The translations under genes were made by a program, and so were the position numbers. From Eubacteriales bacterium (GTDB taxonomy: Bacteria; Bacillota; Clostridia; Oscillospirales; Butyricicoccaceae), in contig JAUNGZ010000004.1 of the NCBI GenBank assembly GCA_030524205.1, positions 59,953 through 123,952 on the forward strand: 64,000 nt of DNA. The letters run 5' to 3'. A model generated the notes under the pieces. The model did no database searches. It worked only from the letters and a program-made list of their open reading frames with translations, and was not told the DNA's origin. Shown here piece by piece: positions 27,350 to 54,830 of the stretch; the first letter of the stretch is position 1; each line of letters starts with the position of its first letter.

Positions 27350-28819
27350 TTATCGGGCCGGGTAATATGCCGGGGTTATGATCAGCGCCGCTTCCGACAG
27401 GCCGCAGCCGACAAGAAACTCCCGTACAAATTCCAAAATATGCGTATAGCACGAGAACAGGCATTCGGCCAAGGCCTCGACCTCTCCGGCGCATAAATAC
27501 CCCATTGCTTCCTTGCATTTGCGGGCAAGCGTCTCGTCAGCCGGAGGGCCGCTGCGGTAGAACGAATAATAATACCCCCAGATGTTGAGACCGCACAGCT
27601 CCCGCAGGATGGTCCGCATCGGCCGCAGCGGCTGATGCTCCACAATGCACCGGACAATCGCGTCCGCGGGAATGCATCCCGGTTCTTCCAGCCGGCGCTT
27701 GAGCGCCGCCTTCTCCTGCTCCCCGATGGCGGGCGCGGACAGCCTCACGGCGGCGGGAAGGATGACGGCCGTCAGCTGCAGCGCGCTTAGATACATAAGC
27801 GTATCCCGCTTGAGCGCCTTGTTTTTCATGCATCTGGCGGCCACCTGCTCATCCTGCCAAAGCACCTTGGTGCCCTTCACATTATAGGTTTTTGCAAAGC
27901 CAACCTCATTGAGCAGCGACAGCGCGCTGCGCACGGTCGACACGCAGACGCCGTACTGCGCCGCCAGCGCCGCTTCGGAGGGGAGATAGGAATTTTCCGG
28001 AAAAGCTCCGGTTCCGATTTTGTCGATCAAATCCCGCGCGATCTGAAGATAGAAATGCTCCCTGCCCCTATACGCGTTCCAAGAGAACTCCAGAGAGGGA
28101 TCTTCCGGCACATTTGGATGCTCGGCCGCAAATTTATCCATCAAAAGCCCGATAGCGGATACGATCGCTTCATACATAACGGAAAAACGGTGCGCAATCT
28201 GCGCGCCGTTTTTTTCCAAGAGCGCTTCGGCGAGCCATGTCAGGCTGCCGAACTCGTTATGGCGCACCACGCTCGATTCAAACTCTTCCAAGTTGGAAAA
28301 CAGCGGAATTTTTGCATAAAGCTCATAATTGGAATACAAATCCCGCAGCAGGAGGTTCCCCGAGCTTTCCAGCAGGAAATACAGAAAGGACGCCATCAGC
28401 TTTTTGCGTTTACCGGCGTCCTTTTTGTCATAATTGCGGAACGCCTTTGCCCATTCCCGCATTTTTTCGTCGCTGCAAGCCATGGACGACAGCGCAAATA
28501 CCGGGGGCAGAAGCAGCGCCATCGTTTGGTAAAGCTGAAGGATGGACGTCCTTTGCCTGAGCGCCGCGTCAACCGCCGAGGCCTGTTGGCGGTCTCCCCG
28601 GCGGAATGTCACAACCGTGTGCTTGCGCTCTTCCGTCCGAATATATCCATCCGCTTTCAAAGCGCACAGCACGTCTTTTATCGTACGGACGCCGACATGG
28701 TACAACTCGCAAAGCTGGCTCATCGAAGCCAACGCATCCCCAAATTCCAACCGTCCGATTTCTATCTGCTCGCGCAGGTCGCGATATACATAATCGAACG
28801 AGGTCTGTTTGTCCTTCAT
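27350..28819 (-). CDS. Double-GntR regulator B (paralogue of the 24,554 gene)
   Basis: 489 residues with GGAGG before the ATG. The first GntR winged helix lies at about 8-75 (VYRDLREQIEIGRLEFGDAL, YHVGVRTIKDVLCALKADGYIRTEER). A helical domain spans 80-255. The second winged helix lies at about 258-325 (ARDLIDKIGTGAFPENSYLP, SEAALAAQYGVCVSTVRSAL). A second helical domain runs to the end. It has the same order, length and spacing as regulator A. A perfect 20-bp palindrome 67 nt upstream of its start (28,887-28,906) is a good candidate for its own operator. Confidence 0.85.
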   Translation of the reverse strand: MKDKQTSFDYVYRDLREQIEIGRLEFGDALASMSQLCELYHVGVRTIKDVLCALKADGYIRTEERKHTVVTFRRGDRQQASAVDAALRQRTSILQLYQTMALLLPPVFALSSMACSDEKMREWAKAFRNYDKKDAGKRKKLMASFLYFLLESSGNLLLRDLYSNYELYAKIPLFSNLEEFESSVVRHNEFGSLTWLAEALLEKNGAQIAHRFSVMYEAIVSAIGLLMDKFAAEHPNVPEDPSLEFSWNAYRGREHFYLQIARDLIDKIGTGAFPENSYLPSEAALAAQYGVCVSTVRSALSLLNEVGFAKTYNVKGTKVLWQDEQVAARCMKNKALKRDTLMYLSALQLTAVILPAAVRLSAPAIGEQEKAALKRRLEEPGCIPADAIVRCIVEHQPLRPMRTILRELCGLNIWGYYYSFYRSGPPADETLARKCKEAMGYLCAGEVEALAECLFSCYTHILEFVREFLVGCGLSEAALIITPAYYPAR

Positions 28820-30769: not shown

Positions 30770-32107
30770 TTACGGATAGCGGCAGTATGCAAGCCGCAGC
30801 ATTTCCGCGAGCATTTCCAGCTCCTTCGTGATATCTCCGTATGCAACGACGAAATGCGGCTCCCAGCCGTCCTTCACGCTTCGCTCCAAAATGGAGCGAA
30901 CGTTCCCTTCGACCCGCACCACCGCGCTCGTGCCGGTATACTGCTTGGGCGCGTCCAGAATTTCCCCCTTGAGCGCAAACAAACGGAACGCCCCCTCCGG
31001 CCCTTGGCCGACGCGGAGCACCGTCGCCTCCTTGGCCGCCTTGCAGCCGAAATCCAGCGTCGGCCCGATTTTCCGGTTGCAGTGCACGCCCGCGCAGGCG
31101 CCGGTATCCTCCCTTGCCAGCGAGCAGGCGGCCGTGCCGCAGTGCCAAAAGGTAAAGGTGTTTTGCGCCTCGTCGATGGACACGGGGTCTCCGAAAAACA
31201 CAGGGCCTCCGCTCAGCCGCATGCCGATAAACATGCTCAGCGCGCCGTAAGCGTCCGCTTCGCAGCCCGCCGCGACGCCGCTGTCATTGAGCATGGCCAG
31301 CACCGCGCAGACCGGCGTGCCGTAATCGGTGAAGAAATCCGGCCAGCAGCGCGACGACACGGCCCCGATTCCTTCCTCCTCTACATAGGTTCGGTAGGCT
31401 TTCCACAGACGCGCGAAATCCGTCCGATTTTTCTCTGAAATCCGATCGAGCCCGTGTATCCGCCCGTGGGCGGTTTCCAGCTCCCAAGCGATATCGTCCG
31501 CGGAATAGGCGGCCGCCCTCGCCATCAGCTGCCTCGTTTCGGCCGACTCCAGATGCACGCCGAAATACCGGAGCATGTCCTCGTCCGCCGCCCTGCCAAA
31601 GCCAAAGCCCTGCGGCGTGTGGCCGATCTGCGCCAGCTTCAAATGCTTCAGCGCAAAGCGCGTCCTTGCGGCGCGGAACGCGGCCCGTATGCCGTCCGCC
31701 GCCTCGGCCGCGGAGCCGTAGACATAGGCGAACGGCTTTCGCCCGCTCCTTCGCAGCATGTGTGCGGCGCTGAACGCGCCGGTCATCGAGTTGAGGCGCA
31801 GCCGCCCGCCGTCCGCCGGAGGCTCCCGCAGCGTCCAAAGCAGGAGCGGGCAGTCCGTTTTTGCGGCCGCCTCTCCGGCGTAGGCCGCGTTTGCAAAGGT
31901 AGCGTTCTGCAAAATCACGAGATCGGGGGACAGCGGCTCCAAAAACGCGGACACCTCTGCCGGACTGAGCAGGATTTTGTCGGGACAGATCACCTCCGCA
32001 TCGATCGCGCGGAGCATTTCGCACGAAGCCCCAAACTGCGCCCGCGCGCTTTCCATATCGAAGGTCCCCACTCCGACCGGAAGGTAGACCGCCGTAAATT
32101 TTTCCAT
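30770..32107 (-). CDS. FucI/AraA-fold sugar isomerase-like protein
   Basis: 445 residues, cytoplasmic, AGGAGG before the ATG. The N-terminal half has the alternating fold of the L-fucose/L-arabinose isomerase family (DLVILQNATFANAAY, then LLLWTLREP). The C-terminal half has a Glu/Asp/His-containing metal region (VLAMLNDSGVAAGCEADAYGA, then FWHCGTAACSLA). Members interconvert aldoses and ketoses. As the last gene of this operon it could make the first step (sulfoquinovose to 6-deoxy-6-sulfofructose, if the sulfo-transketolase reading is right). The assignment to the fold is fairly sure; the substrate is inferred from context. Confidence 0.7.
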   Translation of the reverse strand: MEKFTAVYLPVGVGTFDMESARAQFGASCEMLRAIDAEVICPDKILLSPAEVSAFLEPLSPDLVILQNATFANAAYAGEAAAKTDCPLLLWTLREPPADGGRLRLNSMTGAFSAAHMLRRSGRKPFAYVYGSAAEAADGIRAAFRAARTRFALKHLKLAQIGHTPQGFGFGRAADEDMLRYFGVHLESAETRQLMARAAAYSADDIAWELETAHGRIHGLDRISEKNRTDFARLWKAYRTYVEEEGIGAVSSRCWPDFFTDYGTPVCAVLAMLNDSGVAAGCEADAYGALSMFIGMRLSGGPVFFGDPVSIDEAQNTFTFWHCGTAACSLAREDTGACAGVHCNRKIGPTLDFGCKAAKEATVLRVGQGPEGAFRLFALKGEILDAPKQYTGTSAVVRVEGNVRSILERSVKDGWEPHFVVAYGDITKELEMLAEMLRLAYCRYP

Positions 32108-32125
32108 TTTGCGCCTCCTGTCCGT

Positions 32126-33244
32126 CTATTGCAGCGCCGCAAACATTGCGGTCAGCCGCTCCCGCGTCATTTCAACCGGATTGTTCCGCAGGTTGGGATG
32201 CATGCAGCTTTCCGCGAGCGCGGGCAGGTCGCGCGGCTCGATCCCGGCCTGCCGCAGCGTGCACCGCATGCCGGTTTGCCGTTTCAGCCGCAGGATCTCG
32301 TCCGCCATCGCCTCGGGCGACGCAAAGCCGGTCATGTCCGCCAGCCGCTGCAGCCTGTCCCGCTCCGCTTCGCAGTTGATGCGGAGCAGCGAATCGAGCG
32401 TGAACGCGCAGGCCTCCCCGTGCGGGATATGGTAAAGGCTGGTCAGCGGAAAGGAGCAGGCGTGCGCGGCGGCGGTCTTGGGCGGACCGAAGGCCAAGCC
32501 CGCGGTCAGCGCCGCCAGCGACATGTTTTCCTTGGCCCGCAGGTTGTCGCCGTGCCGGACGGCCTCCTCCAGATTTTCAAAAACCAGCCTGCACGCATAA
32601 ATCGCGCACGCGTCGCAGATGGGCTGGTGGTTTTTGCTCCAATACCCCTCCAGCGCGTGAGAAAGTGCATCGAGGCCGGTGGACGCGGTCACGCGCGGCG
32701 GCACGGACAGGGTGAGCGCCGGGTCGACAATCGCGAGCTTTGCAAACATATGCTCCGACGCCATCGGCGCCTTGCTCCCCTTTTCCGGGTCGCTCAGCAC
32801 CGCCACGTTGGTCACCTCGCTGCCCGTGCCCGCGGTTGTGGGAATGGCGACGACGGGCAGCCCCGGCGCGGCGATCTTTTCGCCGCCGCTGTGAAAAGCG
32901 CGCACGCTTTTGCCGGAATACGCCGTTACGGCCGCGGCTTTGGCGCAGTCGAGCGAGCTGCCGCCGCCGAGCGCCGCGATAAAGCGCGCGCCCTTTTCCT
33001 CCGCCAGCTTGGCGCAGGCGTCCACGCTCGCGACGGTTGGGTTGGATTCCAAATCGCTGAAAACCGCGGTAAGCGCGCCCTCCGCATACCGGACGACCTG
33101 CTCCGCCAGCCCGTTTTCCCGGAAAAAGGGGTCGGCCACGAGTATGCCGTCAGCCCACCCGCGTTCCCGGCAGTACCGCCCCAATTCTTCGACGGTGTTA
33201 CTGCCGAACACGATTTCCGTTGCGAGGGCATATCGGAATTTCAA
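32126..33244 (-). CDS. Iron-type alcohol dehydrogenase, likely sulfo- or phosphonoacetaldehyde reductase-like
   Basis: 372 residues of the group III metal-dependent alcohol dehydrogenases. The nucleotide loop is GGGSSLDCAKAAAV and the signature is IPTTAGTGSEVTNVAVL. Metal ligands lie around TGLDALSHALEGYWS and in HIPHGEACAF. The EGYWS segment is close to the subgroup that includes phosphonoacetaldehyde and sulfoacetaldehyde reductases (SarD/TauF type). With the TauA-like importer and transketolase genes beside it, reduction of sulfoacetaldehyde to isethionate with NADH is the best guess. Butanol or glycerol dehydrogenase activity cannot be excluded from sequence alone. Confidence 0.8.
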   Translation of the reverse strand: MKFRYALATEIVFGSNTVEELGRYCRERGWADGILVADPFFRENGLAEQVVRYAEGALTAVFSDLESNPTVASVDACAKLAEEKGARFIAALGGGSSLDCAKAAAVTAYSGKSVRAFHSGGEKIAAPGLPVVAIPTTAGTGSEVTNVAVLSDPEKGSKAPMASEHMFAKLAIVDPALTLSVPPRVTASTGLDALSHALEGYWSKNHQPICDACAIYACRLVFENLEEAVRHGDNLRAKENMSLAALTAGLAFGPPKTAAAHACSFPLTSLYHIPHGEACAFTLDSLLRINCEAERDRLQRLADMTGFASPEAMADEILRLKRQTGMRCTLRQAGIEPRDLPALAESCMHPNLRNNPVEMTRERLTAMFAALQ

Positions 33245-33262
33245 AGGGTTTTCCTCCTTCCG

Positions 33263-34003
33263 TCACCACCATTTGATCTGCTGGGTGATATATTCCCGCA
33301 GCCTCACAAATTCCTTTGACGCGATATCCCGCGGATGCGGCAGGCCGATCTCCACGGTTTCCTTGACCTTGGCGGGCTTATTGGTCAAAATCATGCATTT
33401 TTCAGCCAGATACACCGCCTCTTCGATGTTGTGCGTGATGAACAGCACCGTCGACCCCGTCGCCTGCCACAGCTTGATGACCTGATCCTCCAGATAATAG
33501 CGGAGCTTGATATCCATCGGCGCGTACGGCTCGTCCATCAGCAGCAGGTCGGGGTGCAGCGCAAAGCTGCGGCCGATGACGATGCGCTGCTCGGTCGAGG
33601 CGGAGAGCTCGCGCGGGTATTTGCCGCGGTCTTTTTCCAGACCGAGGATGCCGAGCACCTCGTCCGTGCGCTGGCGGATCGTCGCCTCGGGCAGCTTTTT
33701 GACCTCCATCCCGAAGCGGATATTCTGCTCAACCGTCAGCCAAGGATAGGCCGACGGCTCCTGAAACACGAAGGAGATATTGTGCTTCTGCGGGTCCGCC
33801 GGCTCCCCGTCGATCAAAATCCGGCCGGCGGTGGGCTCCAAAAGCTTGACGAGCAGATTTAAAAAGGTGGTCTTTCCGCAGCCGGTCGGCCCCACGATGC
33901 AGACGAACTCCCCTTTTTTGATTTCAAACGAAATATCGTCGAGAACCAGCAGATCGCCGAATTTTTTAGTCAGGTTCTCCACTTTCACCTTAGCTTGCTG
34001 CAT
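33263..34003 (-). CDS. TauB/SsuB-like ABC transporter ATPase with altered signature motif
   Basis: 246 residues from ATG 34,003 (MQQAKVKVEN) with GGAGG upstream. Walker A is GPTGCGKTT, the Q-loop is FVFQEPSAYPWLTV and Walker B is LLLMDEPYAPMD. The ABC signature, normally LSGGQ, reads LSASTEQR, and the D-loop has APMD instead of ALD. Both depart from the family norm, so this subunit may be a weak or regulatory ATPase paired with the normal one encoded next to it. It belongs to the nitrate/sulfonate/taurine importer family. Confidence 0.88.
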   Translation of the reverse strand: MQQAKVKVENLTKKFGDLLVLDDISFEIKKGEFVCIVGPTGCGKTTFLNLLVKLLEPTAGRILIDGEPADPQKHNISFVFQEPSAYPWLTVEQNIRFGMEVKKLPEATIRQRTDEVLGILGLEKDRGKYPRELSASTEQRIVIGRSFALHPDLLLMDEPYAPMDIKLRYYLEDQVIKLWQATGSTVLFITHNIEEAVYLAEKCMILTNKPAKVKETVEIGLPHPRDIASKEFVRLREYITQQIKWW

Positions 34004-34016
34004 GGCGTCCTCCCTT

Positions 34017-34772
34017 TTACAAAACCAGATCCGTGTTTTCGGCGATCTCGTTGCGCAGCGCCAAAAATGCGGGGTCGGTGTAGTTTCTGGGTCTGGGGAT
34101 GTCCGGAACATATTCCTTGCGGACCACGGTGGGGGTATCGCCCAATAAAATGATGCGGTCGCCCAGATAGATCGCTTCTTCCAGATTGTTGGTGACGAAA
34201 ATCACCGTGCGCTTTTTCTTTTCCCAGATTTTGAGGATTTCCTCCTCCATCGAATACCGGGTCTGCGCGTCGAGCGCGCCGAAGGGCTCGTCCATCAGCA
34301 TGATATCCGATTCGCTGGAATACGCCCTTGCGATGCCGACCCGCTGCTTCATGCCGCCCGACAGCTGCTTGGGCAGCGCCCTTTCAAAGCCGGTCAAGCC
34401 GACCAGGTCAATGTAGCTCTGCGCTTTTTCCCGGCGCACCTCCTTTTTCACATGCTTGAGCTGCGGCCCCATTTCCACATTGCCCATCACGGTTTTCCAC
34501 GGGAATAACGCGTATTTTTGAAAAACCACGCCCAGCTCTCCCATCTTGGGACGTCCGCCGGAAAATTCAATCGTGCCGGAGGACTGCTCCTCGAGACCCG
34601 CGATGATGTTCAAAATGACCGTTTTGCCGCATTGGCCCGGGCCGAGCAGGACGAGAAACTCGTTTTCATACACGTCAAGCGAAATATCGCCGAGAACGGG
34701 GGTGTTTTTGCCCTTTGCATAAAAAGACTTCGTAATATTGCGGAGCCGAATTTTTACGTTTTGAACTGCCAT
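34017..34772 (-). CDS. TauB/SsuB-like ABC transporter ATPase
   Basis: 251 residues from ATG 34,772, which lies inside the 3' end of the permease gene (19-nt overlap). Walker A is GPGQCGKT, the Q-loop is VVFQKYALFPW, the signature is LSGGMKQR and Walker B is IMLMDEPFGALD: all intact. It energises import of a sulfonate-type solute together with the two permeases and the lipoprotein. The two ATPase genes are adjacent and probably form a heterodimer. Confidence 0.92.
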   Translation of the reverse strand: MAVQNVKIRLRNITKSFYAKGKNTPVLGDISLDVYENEFLVLLGPGQCGKTVILNIIAGLEEQSSGTIEFSGGRPKMGELGVVFQKYALFPWKTVMGNVEMGPQLKHVKKEVRREKAQSYIDLVGLTGFERALPKQLSGGMKQRVGIARAYSSESDIMLMDEPFGALDAQTRYSMEEEILKIWEKKKRTVIFVTNNLEEAIYLGDRIILLGDTPTVVRKEYVPDIPRPRNYTDPAFLALRNEIAENTDLVL

Positions 34773-35527
34773 GGACACAGCACCCCTTCCAGCTTTGTTA
34801 AGGATACGGAAATGATCATGCTGACAATGCCGATCGCGAACATGCACACGACGATCAGCGCCATGTCCCCGATCTCCTGCCCCTTGATGATCAGAAACCC
34901 GACGCCCTGCTTGGCCGCGATCATTTCCGCGGCCAGCACGCACATCCAGCCCGCCGAAAGCGAGGTTTTCACGCCGGCCAGTATTGCGGGGAACGCCGCG
35001 GGCATCGCCACATGCGACAAAAGCTGCGCCTTGGTCGCGCCCAAGGAGCGGCCGGCCTTGATCAGCTCCGGGTCGATGCTTTTCATACCGGCATGCGTGT
35101 TGATCACGATGCCGGTAAACGCGCCGATGAACACGATCACGATTTTTGCCAATTCGCCGATGCCGCACCAAATGATGATCAGCGGCAGCCACGCGATCGG
35201 CGGGATCGGACGGACCAGCTCAAAGGCTGGCATGACCAGCCCCCGGAACACCGGGCTCCAGCCGAACAGCACGCCCAGCGTGATGCCCACGACAACCGCC
35301 AGCACCATGGCGATCAGCACGCGGCGCAGCGAAACCAGAATATGCACGGGCAGCGTCGCGTTTGCGATGGGATTTGTCATGACAAACACGAAGCGGGACC
35401 AGGTCTCCGCGGGCGAGGGGATGAGCGAGCCTTCTTTCATCGAAAGCAGCACCCAGCCGATCAGGATGACGACAATGGACAGCGCGGGCAGCACCGCGTA
35501 GAAGGTATTCTTTACCGCTTTCTTCAT
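34754..35527 (-). CDS. TauC/SsuC-like ABC permease 2
   Basis: 257 residues from ATG 35,527, with six membrane helices. The cytoplasmic coupling loop carries the EAA-type motif SLGATKAQLLSHVAMPAAFPAILAG. The helix with VRPIPPIAWLPLIIIW is characteristic of the SsuC/TauC group. The start overlaps the previous stop by one base (TAATG). It probably pairs with permease 1. Confidence 0.92.
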   Translation of the reverse strand: MKKAVKNTFYAVLPALSIVVILIGWVLLSMKEGSLIPSPAETWSRFVFVMTNPIANATLPVHILVSLRRVLIAMVLAVVVGITLGVLFGWSPVFRGLVMPAFELVRPIPPIAWLPLIIIWCGIGELAKIVIVFIGAFTGIVINTHAGMKSIDPELIKAGRSLGATKAQLLSHVAMPAAFPAILAGVKTSLSAGWMCVLAAEMIAAKQGVGFLIIKGQEIGDMALIVVCMFAIGIVSMIISVSLTKLEGVLCPWQFKT

Positions 35528-36348
35528 TATCTGTCCCTCCATGGCGCGATCCGTTTCTCGATCCGCCCCAGCACAAGCCCCATCAGCGCGCCGATGCTGC
35601 CGATCGTGAACATGCCGAGAACGATGATATCCGGGCGGATCAGGCGGCGGCCCATTTGGATCATATAGCCCAGCCCGCTCGTCGCCGCCAGCATCTCCGC
35701 GGCAACCAGCGTGCCCCAGGAGGAGTTGAGCGCGGTGCGCACGCCGGCAAAAATCATATTGACCGCCGACGGCAGGCAGACCTTTGTGAAGATCTGCCAA
35801 TCCGACGCGCCGAAGGTCTTTGCCACATTGATGTAGGTGCGGTTTGTCAGCTTAATGCCGAGATAGGAGTTGATGACGCAGCCGCAGAACGCGGAGATGA
35901 AAATGATGAATATTTTTGCGCCGAGGCCGATGCCCAAGGTGAGTATCACAATCGGGATCCACGCGATCGGAGGGATGGGCCGCAGAATTTCAAAAATGGG
36001 CGTCATAAATTTGTCGAACGCTTTGAAATAGCCCATGAACAAGCCCAGCGGGATGCCGACCGCGACCGCGATCAAAAAGCCCAGCACGGCGAGCTTGAGG
36101 CTTGCCAGCATGTTGACGATCAGCGTCGCCCCGTCCGGGTTTTTGGAAACGAGCTTTGTCAGCAGGGTGCCGACCAGCTCGCTGGGGCTGCACAGCGCCC
36201 GCGACGAGATCACGCCGGTATCCACCAGAACCTCCCACAGCACAAAGAAAAGAACCAGCCCCGACAAGGATAACAGCACGTTCTTGCGCCGTTCGCGTTC
36301 AAATTTTCTCTGTTCGGGGCTTTTCAGCTTATTGACTGGCTTTTTCAT
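35527..36348 (-). CDS. TauC/SsuC-like ABC permease 1
   Basis: 273 residues. A basic N-terminus (KSPEQRKFERERRK) is followed by six membrane helices and the EAA loop FGASDWQIFTKVCLPSAVN. It shares LRPIPPIAWIPIVI with permease 2, so the two are paralogues. Taurine and sulfonate importers usually use one permease as a homodimer; here two different ones are encoded. Confidence 0.92.
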   Translation of the reverse strand: MKKPVNKLKSPEQRKFERERRKNVLLSLSGLVLFFVLWEVLVDTGVISSRALCSPSELVGTLLTKLVSKNPDGATLIVNMLASLKLAVLGFLIAVAVGIPLGLFMGYFKAFDKFMTPIFEILRPIPPIAWIPIVILTLGIGLGAKIFIIFISAFCGCVINSYLGIKLTNRTYINVAKTFGASDWQIFTKVCLPSAVNMIFAGVRTALNSSWGTLVAAEMLAATSGLGYMIQMGRRLIRPDIIVLGMFTIGSIGALMGLVLGRIEKRIAPWRDR

Positions 36349-36433
36349 CTATATCCCCTCCGTTTTGCGCTATTCCGGCGTATGAAGCAGGGCAGACGCC
36401 CAGACAGCCCGTCTGGACGTCCGCCGGCAGCCT

Positions 36434-37549
36434 TTACTTCAGGCCCGCTTCCGCCGCCAGCTTTTCAATAAACTGGCCGTCGACAAAACCATTTTCCAGC
36501 AGCGTGTCCTTATCGCCGGGCTCATAGCGTCCCTGCGCGATATAGAAATCCACGATGTTATAGATCACGTCGTCGATCTTGCGCTTGCCGTACTCCCCTT
36601 TGAACAGCGCCCAAACGTCCTCCAGCGTCGGCAGGGTGTGCTTGCCGACTTGGATCGCGGCTTGGCCCGCGTCAACGTCGGAGCCCTGCTCGAGCTGCAT
36701 CTCCAAAAAGTACTTGGTCAGCGCGTCGTTGTCGCTTACGTATTTCCCGCTGACCTCATAGTAGGAGCGGAGCCACGCCAAAACCGCGTCGGGCTTTTCG
36801 GAAATTGCTTTTTCGGACGCGACCAGCACGGTCGGCATGGACTCCCCGCCCGAAGCGCCGGTGGCGCAGCAGGTCCAGTCCTCGTCCTCGGCCAGAATGT
36901 AATTGGGGAAGCCCAGCGCGCAGATGTCGCCCTGCCCGGCCTGCATGGCCGTGTACGCCTGCGAGGCGTCCATGTCGATGATGTTCACGTCGTCCTCGGT
37001 CAGGCCGAGCTTGTTGAGCGTGGCGATCAGCACAAAATGCCAGGAGGTCACCAGCGGGCACAAAATCGTCTTGCCGCGCCAAGAGGCCGCGTCGCCGACG
37101 ATGCCGTCGCCGTCGGGGTCGCCGTAGGCGGCGATATCGCTGTCATTCCTGCACCAGAAGGACAGCGCGACCGTGTCCTCGACGGAAAGGCCGATAATTT
37201 TCATATTGTACGCCAGATTGGCGGCGATGGTGGGAGGCGAGCCGATGCAGCCCACGTCCCATTCGTCCGCGCCGAGCGCTTCGGTCTGCGGAGGCCCGGA
37301 GGTGAAGTACAGGATATCCACGTCCAGACCGTTTTCTTCAAACACGCCCTCCTTGTCCGCGATATAGCTCGGCAGGGAATGGATGGACGCTTGATGGCTG
37401 ACGGTGAGCGGCATCAGCGCGCCGTCGGCATCGCCTTCGGGCTGCGACGCGCCGCCCTGCTCCTGCTGCGTGTTGCCGCAGGCGGCAACCGAAAACGCCA
37501 TGAGCACCGCAAGCAAACCGGCAAGTATCCGCTTCGACTGTTTTTTCAT
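36434..37549 (-). CDS. TauA/SsuA/NMT1-type substrate-binding lipoprotein
   Basis: 371 residues. The lipobox is FSVAACGN near residue 24, followed by a Gln/Gly/Glu-rich linker. The two-lobe NMT1/SsuA pattern is visible: HSLPSYIADKEGVFEENGLDVDILYF, then GSPPTIAANLAYNMKIIGLSVED, and DDVNIIDMDASQAYTAMQAGQ. This family binds sulfonates, nitrate, taurine or thiamine precursors. An acidic insert (GDPDGDGIVGD) could bind calcium. It is the only binding protein of the operon. Confidence 0.9.
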   Translation of the reverse strand: MKKQSKRILAGLLAVLMAFSVAACGNTQQEQGGASQPEGDADGALMPLTVSHQASIHSLPSYIADKEGVFEENGLDVDILYFTSGPPQTEALGADEWDVGCIGSPPTIAANLAYNMKIIGLSVEDTVALSFWCRNDSDIAAYGDPDGDGIVGDAASWRGKTILCPLVTSWHFVLIATLNKLGLTEDDVNIIDMDASQAYTAMQAGQGDICALGFPNYILAEDEDWTCCATGASGGESMPTVLVASEKAISEKPDAVLAWLRSYYEVSGKYVSDNDALTKYFLEMQLEQGSDVDAGQAAIQVGKHTLPTLEDVWALFKGEYGKRKIDDVIYNIVDFYIAQGRYEPGDKDTLLENGFVDGQFIEKLAAEAGLK

Positions 37550-37607
37550 CTTCTTCTCGCTCCTTTACTTTTTATCCCATCGGCCGCGGCCGATCTCTTC
37601 CTTCCGG

Positions 37608-38084
37608 TCAGGCGCCGCGGCAGGCCTCGTCGATTTCGCGCACCTGAACGAACGCATCCTTCAGGAACTCCGCCCGCCACGGTTCCACCCCTTCGGTGTG
37701 GCCCGTATGCAAAAAACACTCCACCATTTTGACGCCCAGCTCGGGCGCGATGATCCAGCCGCCCATGCACAGGATGTTGGAATTGTTGATGGCCCGGCTC
37801 ATGCGCGCGCCGTATTCGCTCTCGCAGCACGCGGCAAGCACGCCGGGGAACTTGTTGGCCACCTGACTCATGCCCATGCCGGTGCCGCAGATCAGAACCC
37901 CGAGCTCCGCTTCCTTGCTTTGTATCATCTGCGCGGCCGCCGGCGCGACGGCATAAAACGGCTGGGCGTCGTCCACAGAGAGCGTGCCCACATCCGCGAC
38001 CGTCTGGCCGCAGTCCGTCAAATACCGTTTGACCGCTTCCTTCAGCGTAAAACCGGACTTATCCGAACCGATCACTACTTTCAA
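37608..38084 (-). CDS. RpiB/LacAB-family isomerase with altered active-site residues
   Basis: 158 residues, the usual RpiB length. The catalytic Cys region LICGTGMGMSQVANK is intact. Two residues that matter in ribose-5-phosphate isomerase B are changed: the His of the SDHxGF motif is Lys (SDKSGF), and the ring-opening His (RQHNDTN in E. coli) is replaced (RAINNSN). This suggests a non-phosphorylated, open-chain acidic substrate such as 4-deoxy-4-sulfoerythrose, which cannot form a ring. The gene overlaps the transketolase C-terminal gene by ATGA. The comparison with E. coli RpiB is from memory. Confidence 0.85.
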   Translation of the reverse strand: MKVVIGSDKSGFTLKEAVKRYLTDCGQTVADVGTLSVDDAQPFYAVAPAAAQMIQSKEAELGVLICGTGMGMSQVANKFPGVLAACCESEYGARMSRAINNSNILCMGGWIIAPELGVKMVECFLHTGHTEGVEPWRAEFLKDAFVQVREIDEACRGA

Positions 38085-39025
38085 GAGCTTCCCTTCCTTT
38101 CCATCGCACGTTTTGCCGCCCGGACGATATCCGCAGCCGTCATATGATAGGCGCGCTTGAGATAGTCCAGCTTTGCCACCTCGCCAAAATGATCCTCGAC
38201 GCCGACGCGCTCCAGAGGCATGGGCGCCTGCCCGCAGAGCAGCTCGGCCGCGGCCGACCCAAGCCCGCCGGTCACGTTGTGGTTTTCGCAGGTCACCACC
38301 GCCCCGGTTTTGCGCGCGGACGATAGGACCGTCCGCTCATCGAGCGGTTTGATCGTATGGACGTTGATCACCTCCGCGCCGACCCCTTGGGCGGCGAGCA
38401 GCCGGGCGGCCTCCATCGCTTCCGCGAGCATGATGCCCGAGGCCAGCAGCGTGACGTCGCGCCCGCTTTGCACCACGTCGGCTTTCATCAAATCGAACCG
38501 GTAGGACGCCGGATCGAATATTGGCGGCGCTTCCTTGCGGAACAGGCGGATATACACGGGGCCGGGATGGGCAATGATCTGCGGCACGGCCTGCGCAAGC
38601 TGGACCGCGTCCGCCGGCTCGAAAATCACGATCGAGGGAATGCTCCGCAGCACGCCGATATCCTCCACGCTCATGTGAGTCCCGCCGTTCAGCTCGGCCG
38701 CGATGCCGGGATCGGAGCCGATGATTTTGACGTTCTGCCGCGCGTAGCAGATCGAAATGGCGATCTGATCGCAGATCCGCCTTGTGGCGAAGGCGGTGAA
38801 CGAGCCGATAAAGGGGATAAAGCCGTAGGAGGCCATGCCCGCGGCGATCGAAGCCATGTTCTGCTCCGCGATGCCGACGTCGAACGCCCGCTCCGGAAAA
38901 GCCTCCCGCAGCCCGATCGTTCCGTTCGCCTTTGCCAGATCGGCGTCCAGCACGGCAATATCCGGGTTGCTTTTCATGGCTTCCAACAACTGCTCCGCCA
39001 AAACGGCGCGCATTTCTTTTCCCAT
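38081..39025 (-). CDS. Transketolase, C-terminal subunit
   Basis: 314 residues from ATG 39,025 (MGKEMRAV) after GGAGG. It contains the pyrimidine-binding domain of a thiamine-diphosphate enzyme (FDVGIAEQNMASIAAGMA, with the conserved Glu) and the C-terminal domain (VINVHTIKPLDERTVLSSA). It works with the N-terminal subunit encoded next to it (4-nt gap) to form one split transketolase. A split transketolase inside a sugar operon, apart from a housekeeping enzyme, suggests a dedicated two-carbon transfer step. Confidence 0.93.
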   Translation of the reverse strand: MGKEMRAVLAEQLLEAMKSNPDIAVLDADLAKANGTIGLREAFPERAFDVGIAEQNMASIAAGMASYGFIPFIGSFTAFATRRICDQIAISICYARQNVKIIGSDPGIAAELNGGTHMSVEDIGVLRSIPSIVIFEPADAVQLAQAVPQIIAHPGPVYIRLFRKEAPPIFDPASYRFDLMKADVVQSGRDVTLLASGIMLAEAMEAARLLAAQGVGAEVINVHTIKPLDERTVLSSARKTGAVVTCENHNVTGGLGSAAAELLCGQAPMPLERVGVEDHFGEVAKLDYLKRAYHMTAADIVRAAKRAMERKGSS

Positions 39026-39029
39026 TGCC

Positions 39030-39854
39030 TTACCTCCCCGCAAGCTCATCGAGCGCCTGCCGCGTCTGCTCGGGCGTGAGCGGCATATTGTGATTGCCGC
39101 AGCCGGCGGCCTCGACAAAGGAAACGCCCTTGCCCTTCGTCGTTTTCAGAATGATCATCGACGGGGCCTCCGTATCCGCCTTGGCCTGCCGTATCGCGTC
39201 GGAAACCGCCGATACGTCGTGTCCGTCGACCGTCTGCACGTGATAGCCAAACGCGCGCCATTTTTCCGCGGGGTCGCGAAGGCTCATCACCTCGTCGACC
39301 GTGCCGTCGATCTGCTTGCCGTTCCAGTCCAAGAAGCTGATCAGGCGGTCGAGCTTAAAATGCGCCGCCGCCATCGAGGCTTCCCAAATCTGCCCCTCCT
39401 GCGCCTCGCCGTCGCCTATCACGGCGAACACACAGGCGTCGTACCCTCTGATTTTCGCGGCTTTGGCCATGCCCACCGCGCAGGAATAGCCCTGTCCCAG
39501 CGAACCGGCCGTCATGTCCACGCCTACCGTCCGGTTCATATCGCAGTGGCTCGGCAGCTTGGTGCCCGGCCGGTTGAGCGTGTGCAGCTCCTCCAGCGGG
39601 AAATACCCCTTGAGCGCGAGCGCCGCGTACAGCGCGGGGCCGGCGTGCGCTTTCGACAGCACCAGCCGGTCGCGTTCCGGCCAGCCGGGCTCTTCCGGCC
39701 GCACGCGCATCCCCTCTCCGAAGTACAGCACCGCAAGCAGCTCGGCCAGCGATAGGCAGCCGCCGACATGGCCGACGCCCAGACGCCCGATCTCGTCCAT
39801 GGTATAGTACCGGATCTTCCTCGCCATATCCTCCAGATAGTCTCTTTTGTCCAT
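39030..39854 (-). CDS. Transketolase, N-terminal subunit
   Basis: 274 residues. It carries the thiamine-diphosphate motif GDGEAQEGQIWEAS, ending in the Asn of DWNGKQ. Conserved His residues occur in GHVGGCLS, LSKAHAGPALY and KLPSHCDM. It is partner to the C-terminal subunit. The pair would move a C2 ketol unit from a ketose to an aldose phosphate. In the sulfo-transketolase reading it would act twice, on sulfofructose and on sulfoerythrulose. Confidence 0.93.
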   Translation of the reverse strand: MDKRDYLEDMARKIRYYTMDEIGRLGVGHVGGCLSLAELLAVLYFGEGMRVRPEEPGWPERDRLVLSKAHAGPALYAALALKGYFPLEELHTLNRPGTKLPSHCDMNRTVGVDMTAGSLGQGYSCAVGMAKAAKIRGYDACVFAVIGDGEAQEGQIWEASMAAAHFKLDRLISFLDWNGKQIDGTVDEVMSLRDPAEKWRAFGYHVQTVDGHDVSAVSDAIRQAKADTEAPSMIILKTTKGKGVSFVEAAGCGNHNMPLTPEQTRQALDELAGR

Positions 39855-39857
39855 ACG

Positions 39858-40913
39858 TTATGCCTCCCCTTCGCCGGACGGGTCCGCGCCGATGCGTATC
39901 ACGCACTTTGTCACTTCGTTCTTGCAGTTCATCGCCCGCCGCAGGCCGTCCTCCACCTTGTCAAAGGGGTAAATATCCGAAACCAGCTTTTTCAGCGGCA
40001 GGCCGTTCTCCAGCATCTCGATCGCGAGCGGATAGGTGTTGCGGTAGCGGAACGCGGTTTTGATCGTGATTTCATTGTTGATCAGATGGTTGACATAGAG
40101 GGACGCCTGCCGCTCCACCGGATAGCCGATCAGCGTCACCGTCCCGCCGCGCTTTGCCATCAGACCGGCCTGCTGGATGGTCTGCGGCCTTCCGGCGGCT
40201 TCAAAAACGGCGTCCACGCCGCCAACCGCTTGCTGCAAATATTCCGCGGCGTCCGTTTCGGCGGAATTGATCGTGCGGTAGCAGCCCAGCGTTTGGGCGA
40301 GCGCCAGCCGGTTTTCCATCACGTCGATCACAAACACTTTTTTCACGCCCCTTGCCAGCAGCGCCAGCACGACCGTCAGGCCGATGCAGCCCGCGCCGAT
40401 GACCGCGGCGGTCTGCCCGGCCTGAACGCCGGATTGGCCGACCGCGTGCAGCCCCACCGACAAAGGCTCGATCAGCGCGCCCTCCAGCGTAGAAACGGAG
40501 GCGGGCAGCCGATAGCAGAAGCCCGCCGGATGTACGACATATTCCGCGAAGCACCCTTCCATCGTCGGCGGGGAGGCGTAAAACTTCACCTGCGGGCAAA
40601 GGTTGTACCTGCCGGATTTGCAGAACGCGCATTCCATGCAGGGCTTCTGCGGCTCTATGGCCACCTGGTCGCCCGGCGAAAAGCCGCCGGCGCCTACCCC
40701 CGCTTTGACAACGACGCCGGCAGCCTCATGGCCGAGAACGCATGGAGCGGTTACCGCTTTGCCGCCGCAGGAGGCGGTCTGGTACAGGTGCACGTCCGAA
40801 CCGCACACGCCCACATAATCAATTTTGATCAGCAGCTCGCCGCGGCCGGGCGCGGGAATCTCCGTTTCCCGAAACCTGATCGTTTGCTTTTCCGTCATTT
40901 CGGCGACTTTCAT
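39858..40913 (-). CDS. Zinc-dependent sorbitol-type (MDR) dehydrogenase
   Basis: 351 residues from ATG 40,913 (MKVAEMTEK). The catalytic zinc motif is CGSDVHLYQ followed by GHEAAG. The structural zinc Cys set is CMECAFCKSGRYNLC. The Rossmann motif is VIGAGCIGLTVV with an Asp after strand 2 (VFVIDVMENR), which favours NAD. It resembles sorbitol/L-iditol and threonine dehydrogenases. It is the first gene of the operon. It may feed polyols or sulfo-polyols into the pathway; the substrate is unknown. Confidence 0.9.
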   Translation of the reverse strand: MKVAEMTEKQTIRFRETEIPAPGRGELLIKIDYVGVCGSDVHLYQTASCGGKAVTAPCVLGHEAAGVVVKAGVGAGGFSPGDQVAIEPQKPCMECAFCKSGRYNLCPQVKFYASPPTMEGCFAEYVVHPAGFCYRLPASVSTLEGALIEPLSVGLHAVGQSGVQAGQTAAVIGAGCIGLTVVLALLARGVKKVFVIDVMENRLALAQTLGCYRTINSAETDAAEYLQQAVGGVDAVFEAAGRPQTIQQAGLMAKRGGTVTLIGYPVERQASLYVNHLINNEITIKTAFRYRNTYPLAIEMLENGLPLKKLVSDIYPFDKVEDGLRRAMNCKNEVTKCVIRIGADPSGEGEA

Positions 40914-40937
40914 ACCGTTCACCCCGCAAGCATGTTA

Positions 40938-41004
40938 TTTATCTTTCGATTTATATTATGTTTTTTTCGATATAATTATATTATACGAAAGTATAGAAAG
41001 TCAA
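40938..41004 (-). promoter_or_regulatory. Promoter and candidate DeoR operator of the sulfonate-sugar operon
   Basis: On the minus strand, TTGACT (41,004-40,999), an 18-bp spacer and TATAAT (40,980-40,975) form the promoter. Around it lie repeated CGAAA/TTTCG half-sites: TATACGAAAGTATA at 40,983-40,996, TTTTTTTCGATATA at 40,961-40,974 and ATCTTTCGAT at 40,941-40,950. Similar half-sites occur upstream of the DeoR gene. Confidence 0.6.
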
Positions 41005-41060
41005 GACGCAAGCGCTGCTGCATTTGGAGATTATTCGGCCTTCGTTTTATGGATTATGCC

Positions 41061-41100
41061 AAAACGAAAAAAAGAAAAGGCGCCGCTGTAAGCGGCGCCT
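41061..41100 (-). terminator. Terminator of the DeoR gene
   Basis: On the minus strand, AGGCGCCGCT-TAC-AGCGGCGCCT is followed by a T-rich tail. It separates the regulator from the operon, which has its own promoter. Confidence 0.85.
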
Positions 41101-41126
41101 TCACGCGGATATTCCGAACAGGCCGG

Positions 41127-41888
41127 TTAGTTTTCGTCGGCAAAAATAATCTTGATGCCCATTTTCCTAAGCTCATCGAACAATGCGGCATGCTGCGGCG
41201 AGCGGGTGGTGATGATGGTATGCAGCTGCTTGAATTCGGCAAACAGGTTTACGCCCGCGTGACCGAATTTGCTGTCGTCAAACACCGCGATGACCTCCTT
41301 GCCGGCGGAAATCATCGCCTTTTTTACCATGGCCTCCAGCACCATGCCGGTCGTCAGGCCCACGGAATCGCGCACGCCGGTGCAGCCGATAAACACTTTA
41401 TCGCATTCGAGCGCGGAAATTTCCCCCTCGGTCACCGGGCCTACCGTGCATTTGGATTTTGAAAGCAGCATTCCGCCCAAAAACGTCACCATATGGTTGG
41501 ATTTATCCAAGCAATTAGCGACTGACAGGGAATTGGTGATAACGTTGATCGGATCTCCGTCCGCGATTTGCTCCGCGATCATCATCGTCGTCGTGCCCGA
41601 GTCCAGCATAATGGAGTCCCCCGTGCTGATCAGCTCGGCCGCCCGCTTTGCGATTTGCTGCTTTTTGATGAAATTAGCGTCCTGGCGCTGGCTGAACGGG
41701 ATGGGAACGGCGGTGGCAAGGCTCACCTTTCCGTGGTAACGGATGATCAGCCCCTGCTCGACCAGCTCGGCGATGTCCTTGCGCATCGTTACCTGCGAAA
41801 CGCCGTATATGGCAGCCAGATCCGACACCTTTGTATATTCCTCACGGCTCAGCCGCTGCAGAATATCCTTTCTTCTCTGCTCTACCAT
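41127..41888 (-). CDS. DeoR/GlpR-family repressor of the operon
   Basis: 253 residues from ATG 41,888 (MVEQRRKDI) with GAGG 10 nt upstream. The N-terminal HTH is YTKVSDLAAIYGVSQVTMRKDIAELVEQG. The C-terminal DeoRC sensor domain has DSGTTTMMIAEQIADG, GGMLLSKSKCTVGP and VFDDSKFG. Members usually respond to phosphorylated sugars or related effectors. It lies between the operon (same strand) and the divergent EamA gene, and TTTCG half-sites are present on both sides. Confidence 0.92.
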   Translation of the reverse strand: MVEQRRKDILQRLSREEYTKVSDLAAIYGVSQVTMRKDIAELVEQGLIIRYHGKVSLATAVPIPFSQRQDANFIKKQQIAKRAAELISTGDSIMLDSGTTTMMIAEQIADGDPINVITNSLSVANCLDKSNHMVTFLGGMLLSKSKCTVGPVTEGEISALECDKVFIGCTGVRDSVGLTTGMVLEAMVKKAMISAGKEVIAVFDDSKFGHAGVNLFAEFKQLHTIITTRSPQHAALFDELRKMGIKIIFADEN

Positions 41889-41942
41889 ATGTAACACTTC
41901 CTCAATAAATATTCACTGCGCGGAGCCATGTACGCGAGCCCT

Positions 41943-42040
41943 TCGTATATATTACGAATCTTTCGCATCAATGCATTTTAGGTTATTTAAATTATATATC
42001 ATCCTTGCGTTTTGTCAATAATAATTTCGTAACTTTCATT
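41943..42040. promoter_or_regulatory. Candidate DeoR operator sites between the regulator and the EamA gene
   Basis: TCGTATATATTACGA (41,943-41,957) is an inverted repeat. The next site is ATCTTTCGCA (41,958-41,967), and TTTCGTAACTTTCA lies near 42,025. ATCTTTCG is shared with the operon promoter region. Confidence 0.4.
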
Positions 42041-42047
42041 TTATGCC

Positions 42048-42076
42048 TTGACTGTATTACGTTTTGGATGTATATT
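42048..42076 (+). promoter_or_regulatory. Promoter of the EamA transporter gene
   Basis: TTGACT, 17-bp spacer, TATATT, about 45 nt before the ATG. Confidence 0.7.
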
Positions 42077-42120
42077 ATTTCTAATATTTCGCTTCTATTG
42101 TGCAATATAAGGAGGGCGCC

Positions 42121-43050
42121 ATGAAAAGCAAGTCCGACTACTTCGCTTTGGTTTTTCTTTCCTTCGTTTGGGCCGGCCACCTGACCTTGGTCCGGGTAAT
42201 CGGCGCGTTCCTTCCCGTCAACACAACCGGGGCGTGCGTCCGCGCGGCTACCTGCATCATATTGACGGCAGCGTTAGCCGCCGCGCACCGCCTGCCCGCG
42301 CTGCGCATCGCCAGCGCCAAAATAGGCCTGCTGCTGGTGTGCGTCGGCGGGCTCGGGTTTTTGTTGGATTTTTTTTCATTTCTCGGCCTTACCTATGCCG
42401 ATTCCAACACCGGAACCGCGCTGCTCAAAACAGACGTGCTGTTCTCGGCGCTTCTGACGGCCCTCGTATTCAAAAAAGGCGCGCGGTTCCGCCCGCGCGA
42501 TTGGGGCGTTACGCTTGCCATGCTTTTCGGCGTTTTGCTCATACTCGACATCGACTTGGCCCATCTGCACTGGAAAGCGACCGATTTCTATTTTATTCTA
42601 AGCGCCCTCTTTGTCACGCTCAACGCGTTTTTGATCCAGCATTTGCAGCACAGGCACGGCCTTTCAAATGATACGATCGCGTTCTATAACAATTTATTTA
42701 CGATGCTCATTTTTGCCGTCTTCGCGCTTATGTTTGAAAACGGCGCGTTTTCCCTCTCCCGGCTTACGCTGCGGCAGTATCTGCCGCTTTTGGCCGCCGG
42801 CGCGACGCAGTCGTTGATATACCTGTATTATTACCGGAGCCTGTCTGTTTTCCCGGTGTGGTTTGTAAAATCAATCCTGCTCTTGATGCCGGTCTTTTCC
42901 ATGGTCATCAACTTCCTCGCATTTCAAACGATTCCCACCCCGCAGCATCTGCTCGGCACCGCAATCGTGGTCGGCTGTGCGGCGCATATGCTGTACGCGC
43001 ACCGGCATGACGGGCGCGAGGACGGAACCGGCGTTTGCTCCCGCGGGTAG
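42121..43050 (+). CDS. EamA/DMT-superfamily permease
   Basis: 309 residues from ATG 42,121 after AAGGAGG. Ten membrane helices in two EamA repeats: residues 1-140, with FLDFFSFLGLTYADSNTGTALLKTD in the first, and 150-290 in the second. The family moves small metabolites such as amino acids and drugs, often outward. It is divergent from the DeoR repressor and shares its control region. It is therefore a candidate exporter of the operon's end product (isethionate in the model) or a second importer. Confidence 0.88.
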   Translation: MKSKSDYFALVFLSFVWAGHLTLVRVIGAFLPVNTTGACVRAATCIILTAALAAAHRLPALRIASAKIGLLLVCVGGLGFLLDFFSFLGLTYADSNTGTALLKTDVLFSALLTALVFKKGARFRPRDWGVTLAMLFGVLLILDIDLAHLHWKATDFYFILSALFVTLNAFLIQHLQHRHGLSNDTIAFYNNLFTMLIFAVFALMFENGAFSLSRLTLRQYLPLLAAGATQSLIYLYYYRSLSVFPVWFVKSILLLMPVFSMVINFLAFQTIPTPQHLLGTAIVVGCAAHMLYAHRHDGREDGTGVCSRG

Positions 43051-48340: not shown

Positions 48341-48495
48341 ACACCGGCAAAGGTGCGGTTTTCGGGTGGAACCGGCAAGATTTCTGAGATAAGGCGGCTT
48401 GAACCGCCGCGTAAGGATTGATCTTGCCCTTGTATTTCCCCCGGGCCGCGCCTTTTTTATGGACAAAACAAGAATAAAGGAACGAGGTGGTAACT

Positions 48496-49371
48496 GTGAA
48501 AAAAAGAGGACGATGGGGATATGTGTTTGTGCTGCCGGCCGCTCTGCTTTTTTTGCTCGTATATGGGATTCCGCTGGTCACAGTGTTTGTAACGTCATTG
48601 TTTGATTACAGGATTTTCCCGGACCGGTTTACGTTTATCGGCTTGGAGAATTACTGCAAGCTCTTCTTTCAGGATCAGGCCTTTTGGCAGGCGTTTTTCA
48701 ACACCGTCGTCTGGCTGCTGCTGCAATGCACCGTGCATGTGGCGCTCGGCGTTTTAATCGCGTTGATTCTGGCAAAGCGGCCGCGCGGATGGAAAACGAT
48801 CCGCGTTTGCTATATGATCCCGAACATCATTTCCGCTTCCGCGGTCGGCATGATTTTTATTAACTTTTACAACCCGGAGTTCGGCATTTTGAATTCTTTG
48901 CTCAGGCTGGCCGGCTTGGAGCATTTGCAGCACAACTGGCTGTACGACATGTCGACGGCCTTCCCGGCCGTCACCGTGACCTGGCTGCTGTTTGCCGGAT
49001 ATACCACAACGCTGGTGCTGGCCGAGATCCTTTCCGTGCCGGAATCTATTTTCGAGGCCGCCCGGGTGGACGGCGCGACCGGCGTGCAAATGGACGTGCG
49101 GATCACGCTGCCGTTGATCAAAAACATCATCGCAACTTCAACGGTCATGGCCGCCACCTACATGCTGCAAATGTTTGTGCTGCTGTACGTTACCACAAAG
49201 GGCGGGCCGAGCGGCTTGACGACCAATCTGCCGCTTTACCTATATAAAACCGCGCTGCTTGAAAACAATTACGGATATGCCAATACGATGGGCGTGTTTA
49301 TCATCCTGATCGGCATCGCCATCATGACGGCAATCAACCGTGCGTTCGGCGTAGGGAAAGGGGAGGAATAA
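48496..49371 (+). CDS. ABC sugar permease (LacF/UgpA-like)
   Basis: 291 residues from GTG 48,496. Six membrane helices. The coupling motif EAARVDGATGVQMDVRITLPLIKN is the sugar-type EAA loop. It is partner of the second permease, which starts 3 nt after its stop. Confidence 0.93.
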   Translation: MKKRGRWGYVFVLPAALLFLLVYGIPLVTVFVTSLFDYRIFPDRFTFIGLENYCKLFFQDQAFWQAFFNTVVWLLLQCTVHVALGVLIALILAKRPRGWKTIRVCYMIPNIISASAVGMIFINFYNPEFGILNSLLRLAGLEHLQHNWLYDMSTAFPAVTVTWLLFAGYTTTLVLAEILSVPESIFEAARVDGATGVQMDVRITLPLIKNIIATSTVMAATYMLQMFVLLYVTTKGGPSGLTTNLPLYLYKTALLENNYGYANTMGVFIILIGIAIMTAINRAFGVGKGEE

Positions 49372-49374
49372 ACG

Positions 49375-50217: not shown

Positions 50218-50230
50218 GGAGGATTATGGC

Positions 50231-51688: not shown

Positions 51689-51702
51689 AAGGGGAAGCGG
51701 AA

Positions 51703-54819: not shown

Positions 54820-54830
54820 GGAGGATAGCG

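Follow-up and report, generated by a model that had tools for sequence, protein, structure and literature searches.

Gene content and organization of the locus

The window, i.e. the whole stretch of 64,000 nucleotides analysed from contig JAUNGZ010000004.1 of a Butyricicoccaceae genome (assembly GCA_030524205.1; 2.2 Mb, estimated completeness approximately 82%), contains at positions 30770-43050 a candidate sulfo-transketolase (sulfo-TK) locus for the catabolism of sulfoquinovose (SQ), a plant sugar with sulfur in it, that comprises 12 minus-strand genes and one divergent plus-strand gene, all of them long open frames. The families of the encoded proteins were assigned with Pfam and NCBIfam; every gene that an earlier note on this DNA had named was present and belonged to the family given there. 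Eleven of the minus-strand genes form a unit in the following order: a zinc polyol dehydrogenase of the sorbitol/xylitol/L-idonate dehydrogenase family (Zn-ADH, 39858-40922; NCBIfam and PDB matches), the N-terminal and C-terminal halves of a split transketolase (39030-39854, Pfam Transketolase_N, SqwG role; 38081-39025, Pfam Transket_pyr and Transketolase_C and tree placement, SqwH role), an RpiB-like isomerase of 158 amino acids (37608-38084), a substrate-binding lipoprotein of the NMT1 family with a lipobox-like N-terminus (36434-37549), the TauC-like ABC permeases A (35527-36348) and B (34754-35527), the importer ATPases 1 (34017-34772) and 2 (33263-34003), an iron/metal alcohol dehydrogenase of 372 amino acids (Fe-ADH, 32126-33244) and an isomerase of 445 amino acids (30770-32107). 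The frames of the RpiB-like protein and the transketolase C-half share 4 bases. Upstream lie a DeoR-family repressor gene (41127-41897, minus strand; Pfam DeoRC and HTH_DeoR) and, divergently, an EamA permease gene (42121-43050, plus strand; Pfam EamA).

The promoter region of the unit (40923-41126, minus strand) contains a promoter-like site upstream of the Zn-ADH gene (TTGACT-18-TATAAT at 41004-40975, minus strand, 11 of 12 matches), the terminator-like hairpin that follows deoR (41102-41076) and four TTTCG/CGAAA motifs, a number reached in 21 of 1000 shuffles. Between deoR and eamA (41898-42120), promoter-like sites point both ways (42018-41991 on the minus strand for deoR, 12 of 12 matches; 42048-42076 on the plus strand for eamA) and three TTTCG motifs are found (28 of 1000 shuffles reach three). 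Promoter-like sites numbered 10 in the stretch versus a shuffle mean of 4.2, and terminator-like sites 18 versus 15.9, the latter being near chance as a class. Inside the eleven-gene unit no minus-strand promoter-like site was seen, and the hairpins there were weak (5-6 pairs). The unit probably starts at the site at 41004-40975 with the Zn-ADH gene as its first, in agreement with the earlier placement of this gene at the operon head; of the single DeoR-controlled operon suggested before, the eleven-gene unit stands, whereas deoR is separate, with a promoter-like site and a terminator-like hairpin of its own. We infer that DeoR probably represses the operon, eamA and its own gene.

The isomerase groups with those of sulfoquinovose loci

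The sole NCBIfam match of the window isomerase (FucI/AraA superfamily, SqvD/SftI type) was the sulfoquinovose isomerase model NF048012 (residues 5-440, E 3.4e-113, 378.7 bits). The equivalog cut-off of 700 was missed by this protein and by all four isomerases of SQ loci tested (L034 372.2, L058 382.5, L156 401.4, L041 201.5; L numbers denote the fetched loci); isomerases outside SQ loci, L006 of the same genus and L002 of the same order, gave 72.6 and 127.2 bits, respectively. Pfam Fucose_iso_C scored just below its cut-off (28.6 versus 29.3). E283, D307 and H418, likely metal ligands by analogy with FucI, are invariant in 7 aligned rows.

Matches to the isomerase occurred in 11 of 391 genomes of the class sample (E 1e-40 or better) and in 10 of 394 genomes of the order sample (E 1e-60), own genome included in both cases; three relatives at 50-60% identity came from the former and nine from the latter. 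There was no close relative in the 24 other genomes of the same genus that were examined (best E 1.5e-18), and nothing was found in a search of a viral collection. The neighbourhoods of these relatives resemble SQ clusters (YihQ-type GH31, transaldolase, sulfolactaldehyde-reductase-like protein, DUF4867 (SqvB), TauE, ROK), those of L034 and L161 containing transketolase and RpiB; models were run on part of the neighbours (confirming DUF4867 in L033, L041 and L058 and TauE in L156), and the remaining labels rest on BLAST to those.

Altogether 25 SQ loci were compared: 16 of sulfo-TK type (SqvD with transketolase C-half and RpiB) and 9 of sulfo-transaldolase (sulfo-TAL) type (SqvD with a sulfolactaldehyde-reductase-like gene). 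Because L034 and L062 derive from one contig, the 16 loci represent 15 records and the 25 loci 24; in one genome-contig scan the best 80 matches were kept. Some of the loci run into the end of a contig or of the fetched stretch, and absences in these are weak evidence. In the isomerase tree (without matches under 80 bits, rows under 350 amino acids and short duplicate loci), the window protein and 23 isomerases of SQ loci formed a 100/100 clade of 24 rows, 17 of the 23 showing YihQ in the fetched stretch; identities to the 23 ranged from 50 to 60% (mean 56%). By model score and clade, the unit encodes a putative SqvD-type SQ isomerase of the sulfo-TK pathway.

The RpiB-like enzyme lacks two canonical histidines

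The RpiB-like protein was 48-55% identical to the RpiB of Bacillota sulfo-TK loci, 39-40% to that of two spirochaete loci and 33-41% to four others, and grouped in the tree with the RpiBs of sulfo-TK-type loci (SqwI; 18 rows, support 96/92). According to the available excerpts of two studies, His9/10/11 of the RpiB family contacts the phosphate and His96/99/102 opens the ring, the H99N exchange in EcRpiB lowering kcat 26-fold (PMC4783025, PMC3755991). The window protein carries K9 and I99 at these positions. In the alignment (duplicates L029, L030 and L062 left out), the phosphate-binding position was Lys in 16 of 23 rows (window and 15 sulfo-TK), Arg in 1, Leu in 2 and His in 4, and of the 22 rows readable at the ring-opening position, 18 had Ile (the window protein and 17 sulfo-TK-type rows), 3 His and 1 Ala; L138, outside the sulfo-TK type, likewise has no ring-opening His. 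As the rows share ancestry, these replacements are not independent events. The loss of the ring opener would make sense for 4-deoxy-4-sulfoerythrose, a sulfonated tetrose without the hydroxyl group through which a furanose ring would close. Clade and shared residues together mark the protein as a probable 4-deoxy-4-sulfoerythrose isomerase of SqwI type. The two replaced histidines suggest a sequence test for SqwI, an activity described as not directly measurable, because the substrate seems to isomerise spontaneously (PMC9594981).

The reductase resembles a sulfoacetaldehyde reductase

By far the closest solved relative of the Fe-ADH was 6JKO/6JKP (E 2.5e-105, 46% identical), identified as BkTauF, a sulfoacetaldehyde reductase, in the excerpted structural study (PMC6616044); this solved relative is not one that acts on plain pentoses, apiose or phosphonates, the outcome that would have spoken against the earlier proposal. 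The probed substrate-site residues F252, T257 and F265 of BkTauF and its ligands D192, H261 and H275 are kept, and Q196 is replaced by His, as reported there for a number of BkTauF homologues (PMC6616044). Of 21 rows, 15 showed the F252-T257-[F/Y]265 combination, namely the window protein, BkTauF, L043 and 12 reductases from loci of sulfo-TK type; the 6 others lacked it. These 12 reductases are only 33-40% identical to BkTauF, compared with 46% for the window protein. The tree (without L062 and rows under 270 amino acids) did not settle its exact placement, near BkTauF and L043; the latter, an uncharacterised stand-alone gene, is the nearest reductase in the sample (52%). In the position of SqwF (or of the oxidising SqwD/KL) in the sulfo-TK pathway, the unit accordingly offers, by sequence, a TauF-type metal-dependent alcohol dehydrogenase with conserved site residues and probable sulfoacetaldehyde reductase function. 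SarD had been considered for its identity and was set aside in favour of TauF.

Importer, zinc dehydrogenase and EamA permease

The lipoprotein is SsuA/TauA-like: it matched TIGR01728 of the SsuA family (E 4.9e-26), and TauA (6SSY, E 1.3e-7) was the one PDB entry that it matched with E 0.001 or better. Permeases A and B matched the TauC model (E 5.8e-50 and 3.7e-49), and the top models of the ATPases were SaoA, followed by TauB-type and PhnT2-type. The TauABC/SsuABC-type importer claimed earlier is borne out in that these families are the best matches of the lipoprotein and the permeases, all below the curated cut-offs, none of which was reached by any Tau/Ssu subunit of the window. According to NCBIfam and the motif table, ATPase 1 has a normal signature (LSGGM), Asn in place of the H-loop His and Gln as fourth P-loop residue, and ATPase 2 a normal Walker A and H-loop His and a degenerate signature (LSAST). 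The same division of motifs recurred in all eight related systems, including the window (three from one genome, one from the window's own genome): ATPase 1 with H-loop Asn, a non-Gly fourth P-loop residue and normal LSGGM, ATPase 2 with normal Walker A and H-loop and a broken signature LS[AVT]S (in one ISVS). Identities among the eight were 25-34% for the lipoprotein, 54-67% for the ATPases and 37-55% for the permeases. The heterodimer would contain one degenerate and one normal composite ATP site, an arrangement known from asymmetric heterodimeric ABC proteins. In text searches covering titles and the beginnings of abstracts, neither such an importer for SQ nor the gene arrangement of the window was found described. 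A second importer of this type is present in the same genome (G000:C13, L144:4235-8669) and adjoins sulfatase-like genes. In other genomes of the class, members of this importer family are encoded next to LarA-type racemases and TauE exporters, pointing to additional sulfonate or sugar-acid routes that are still uncharacterised.

The Zn-ADH matched the NCBIfam L-idonate 5-dehydrogenase model (E 6.3e-61, below cut-off) and in the PDB 5vm2 (alcohol dehydrogenase), 1e3j (ketose reductase), 3qe3 and 1pl6 (sorbitol dehydrogenase). In the class sample, the genes closest to it (46-48%) lie beside aldolase, sugar-kinase or other genes, labelled by look, and in the short stretches fetched no SqvD was seen beside them. 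These matches say polyol dehydrogenase and nothing more precise.

Three features had been put forward as new. The Tau-type importer and the Zn-ADH, as well as a relative of the DeoR regulator, were absent from all 25 SQ loci at the thresholds used, which for the importer and the dehydrogenase agrees with the claim; the divergent EamA permease was present in 9 of 16 sulfo-TK loci as opposed to none of 9 sulfo-TAL loci, and is not new. The window EamA shared 36-41% of its residues with the EamA proteins of 10 sulfo-TK-type loci and is a candidate isethionate exporter.

Two neighbouring regions are recorded here. At 47042-58488 (plus strand) follows what looks like a sulfated-sugar locus with a CUT1-type sugar ABC importer, a sulfatase, a Gfo/Idh/MocA protein, a glucosamine-6-phosphate-isomerase-like protein, a ketohexokinase-like protein and TauE/SafE. 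At 27350-28819 (minus strand), GntR-type models matched a 489-amino-acid protein in two stretches, suggesting a doubled regulator. Among the comparison loci, a glycyl-radical (2S)-3-sulfopropanediol dehydratase HpfG (L163:15831-18341; 1614 bits, cut-off 1000) was seen beside a sulfo-TAL-type cluster.

Proposed pathway and alternatives

With the closest relatives of the isomerase and the RpiB-like protein in SQ loci and a characterised sulfoacetaldehyde reductase as closest solved relative of the Fe-ADH, the sulfo-TK interpretation of the earlier note is supported. The observed gene content, family membership, diagnostic residues and cluster relationships point, with a probability that we put at roughly 0.8, to a sulfo-TK operon for the anaerobic fermentation of a free six-carbon sulfosugar; both the presumed substrate, most probably SQ, and the product are deduced from the genes. 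All five enzymes occur together, as in 12 of the 16 sulfo-TK loci. The lipoprotein and the heterodimeric Tau/Ssu-like ABC importer would take up the sulfosugar and the SqvD-type isomerase would convert it to 6-deoxy-6-sulfofructose, from which the split transketolase would transfer the C1-C2 ketol unit to glyceraldehyde-3-phosphate, yielding xylulose-5-phosphate and 4-deoxy-4-sulfoerythrose. After isomerisation to 4-deoxy-4-sulfoerythrulose by the RpiB-like enzyme, the transketolase would cut off another C2 unit, so that a second xylulose-5-phosphate is formed along with sulfoacetaldehyde; the TauF-type reductase would form isethionate, thereby regenerating NAD+, and EamA would export it. The Zn-ADH probably feeds a related polyol into the route.

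Several observations weigh against this sulfo-TK interpretation. In the isomerase tree the window protein has its own long branch, weakly beside the sulfo-TAL isomerases (91/82; a clade with 12 sulfo-TK rows was not rejected, p-AU, i.e. approximately unbiased test, 0.169), and its mean identity within the clade of 24 (56%) is the second lowest (L062 53%, the rest 58-70%). The Zn-ADH has no place in the published sulfo-TK route. The other seven importers (L138-L144) neighbour LarA-type racemases, TauE/SafE, aldolases, sulfatases and transketolases (LarA-type by Pfam for L138 and otherwise by look; TauE/SafE by Pfam for L140 and L143; sulfatase for L144), so varied a set that the importer substrate cannot be read from the family. 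Both transketolase halves, the SqwGH of the pathway, are present in the cluster, yet fall outside the sulfo-TK transketolase clades: in the C-half tree (without matches under 225 bits, rows under 290 amino acids, loci L085-L122 and duplicate L062), the window protein paired with L043 (68% identical, fork 87/83), a stand-alone pair, while 12 Oscillospiraceae-type sulfo-TK rows formed a separate clade (100/99) together with L053, in whose stretch no SqvD was seen, and L034, L041, L042 and L065 a third set. Forcing the window C-half together with the 12 rows (picked after the tree) was rejected (p-AU 2.3e-5), as was forcing it with all 16 (labelled by gene content before the tree; p-AU 3.8e-5). 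Separate recruitment of the window transketolase is the simplest reading of this exclusion. As the own 2.2-Mb assembly holds 7 matches to the C-half (L132-L137 and one more), transketolase identity says little; its use as a pathway marker was also rejected, since stand-alone genes make up the pairs most similar to that of the window (59-68%; L043-L046 according to gene lists, L048 by BLAST only). One of the own-genome transketolase matches, L145, has Fe-ADH and Zn-ADH neighbours. In L043 (7296-10239), the stand-alone transketolase pair is convergent with the TauF-like reductase gene; both are the nearest relatives found of the respective window genes.

Furthermore, neither YihQ nor SqvB was found in the own, approximately 82% complete assembly. 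In the control genomes of that search YihQ was detected in 3 of 3 and SqvB in 2 of 3; the PF16161 search of the own genome alone was uninformative and was therefore repeated with other genomes. The E. coli control genome scored below the YihQ cut-off; the model was then checked on E. coli K-12 YihQ itself, which gave 1246.6 bits (L034 867, L032 779; cut-off 553) and is 44% identical to the L034 protein, and a search of the own genome with the K-12 protein gave nothing. YihQ was seen in 18 and SqvB in 14 of the 25 SQ loci; in the fetched stretches of the 16 sulfo-TK loci, YihQ was not seen in 7 and SqvB not in 10 (the L041 stretch is cut, and its genome does have YihQ). As both are unseen in several sulfo-TK loci too, they are not strictly defining for the type. 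The available text of PMC13219744 indeed describes sulfo-TK genomes of Caproiciproducens that have neither YihQ nor SqgA, which makes a scavenger of free SQ plausible; surveys based on YihQ would miss this operon. A GH188 sulfoquinovosidase (SQase) next door was considered for the Gfo/Idh/MocA protein at 53731-54819, but none of its 24 PDB matches was labelled SQase; a genome-wide SqgA search was not made.

The same C2-cutting route might serve a main import other than SQ, namely a sulfo-alditol (6-deoxy-6-sulfo-glucitol or -mannitol) oxidised by the Zn-ADH to sulfofructose, or another 6-sulfohexose. We consider this rather unlikely, even if the redox would balance between Zn-ADH and reductase, a zinc polyol dehydrogenase with sorbitol, xylitol and arabinitol dehydrogenases and a ketose reductase among its solved relatives heads the operon and is missing from all 25 SQ loci, the importer differs from those of CUT1 and Tct type that were recognised in part of these loci, no SQase or SqvB was found in the assembly and the isomerase is relatively divergent. 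An isomerase, however, is needed only for an aldose, and the one present lies in the SQ-isomerase clade; we know of no natural sulfo-alditol. Besides, Caproiciproducens exemplifies SQ degraders without YihQ in the accessible part of PMC13219744.

The transketolase pair and the importer might alternatively act on another sugar, with isomerase, RpiB-like protein and reductase taking part in a sulfosugar route completed elsewhere in the genome. The transketolase placement and the recurrence of the order ZnADH-TKN-TKC-SBP-PermA-PermB-ATP1-ATP2 (TKN and TKC, transketolase halves; SBP, substrate-binding protein) in L138, where no SqvD was found, are in line with such a hybrid; it appears improbable in view of the abutting or overlapping frames, the lack of minus-strand promoter-like sites within the unit, where hairpins are weak (5-6 pairs), and an operon in which no transaldolase or other sulfofructose-cleaving gene was seen. 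Less probable still, and in our view very unlikely, is that the locus serves an unsulfonated or phosphonated sugar (pentose, apiose, deoxysugar, phosphonate) and looks sulfo-TK-like through shared families: FucI-like isomerases, RpiB-like enzymes and split transketolases do serve many sugars, and L036 combines a distant isomerase (approximately 28%) and a transketolase while showing no YihQ, SqvB, sulfolactaldehyde reductase or EamA marker, but both canonical histidines are gone from the RpiB-like protein, the reductase keeps the BkTauF site residues, the isomerase lies in the SQ clade, EamA resembles that of sulfo-TK loci and the importer is Ssu/Tau-like.

We read the operon as a separately assembled variant of the sulfo-TK type for scavenging free SQ or a closely related sulfosugar or sulfopolyol, its gene set probably having been put together apart from the two other sulfo-TK lineages seen. 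That the route is already known and that importer, extra polyol dehydrogenase and transketolase origin differ from the relatives examined is well supported. Doubtful, if conceivable, is the stronger version: a third, independently assembled sulfo-TK route with separate transketolase and reductase and an asymmetric Tau-like importer class not found described, in which a sulfonated polyol would be taken in with or instead of SQ.

Comparison with known systems

The sulfo-TK scheme has been published (PMC9594981, PMC11659671). That it had been reported in a Clostridium, as the earlier note stated, is correct, but it is no longer confined to that organism: the available excerpts of PMC11659671 and PMC13219744 also place it in Faecalicatena, rumen Oscillospiraceae, Caproiciproducens and Sphaerochaetaceae. 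Judged from excerpts of the published descriptions, Clostridium sp. MSTE9 and Faecalicatena (SqvD, SqwGH, SqwI, SqwF) cluster the same five enzyme families and follow the same C6 to C4 to C2 logic, and the Faecalicatena cluster includes a drug/metabolite-type permease, as does the window with EamA. In contrast, no SQase, SqvB or ROK regulator was found here; the window has a Tau/Ssu-like importer, DeoR and Zn-ADH instead. The BkTauF of Bifidobacterium is placed in taurine nitrogen assimilation, whereas the aldehyde of the window route would derive from a sulfosugar. TauABC/SsuABC importers are the nearest family for the lipoprotein and permeases, but in the window system the two permeases are unlike each other, and so are the two ATPases, whose degenerate motifs are complementary. 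Compared with the Oscillospiraceae/Clostridia sulfo-TK loci (L047, L049-L052, L054, L056-L058), the isomerase is 55-59%, the RpiB-like protein 48-51%, the reductase 43-47% and EamA 39-41% identical, where present. The differences concern the importer, the regulator and the Zn-ADH, and the transketolase is of another clade. In those loci the isomerase gene is divergent from the transketolase, whereas in the window it closes one compact operon.

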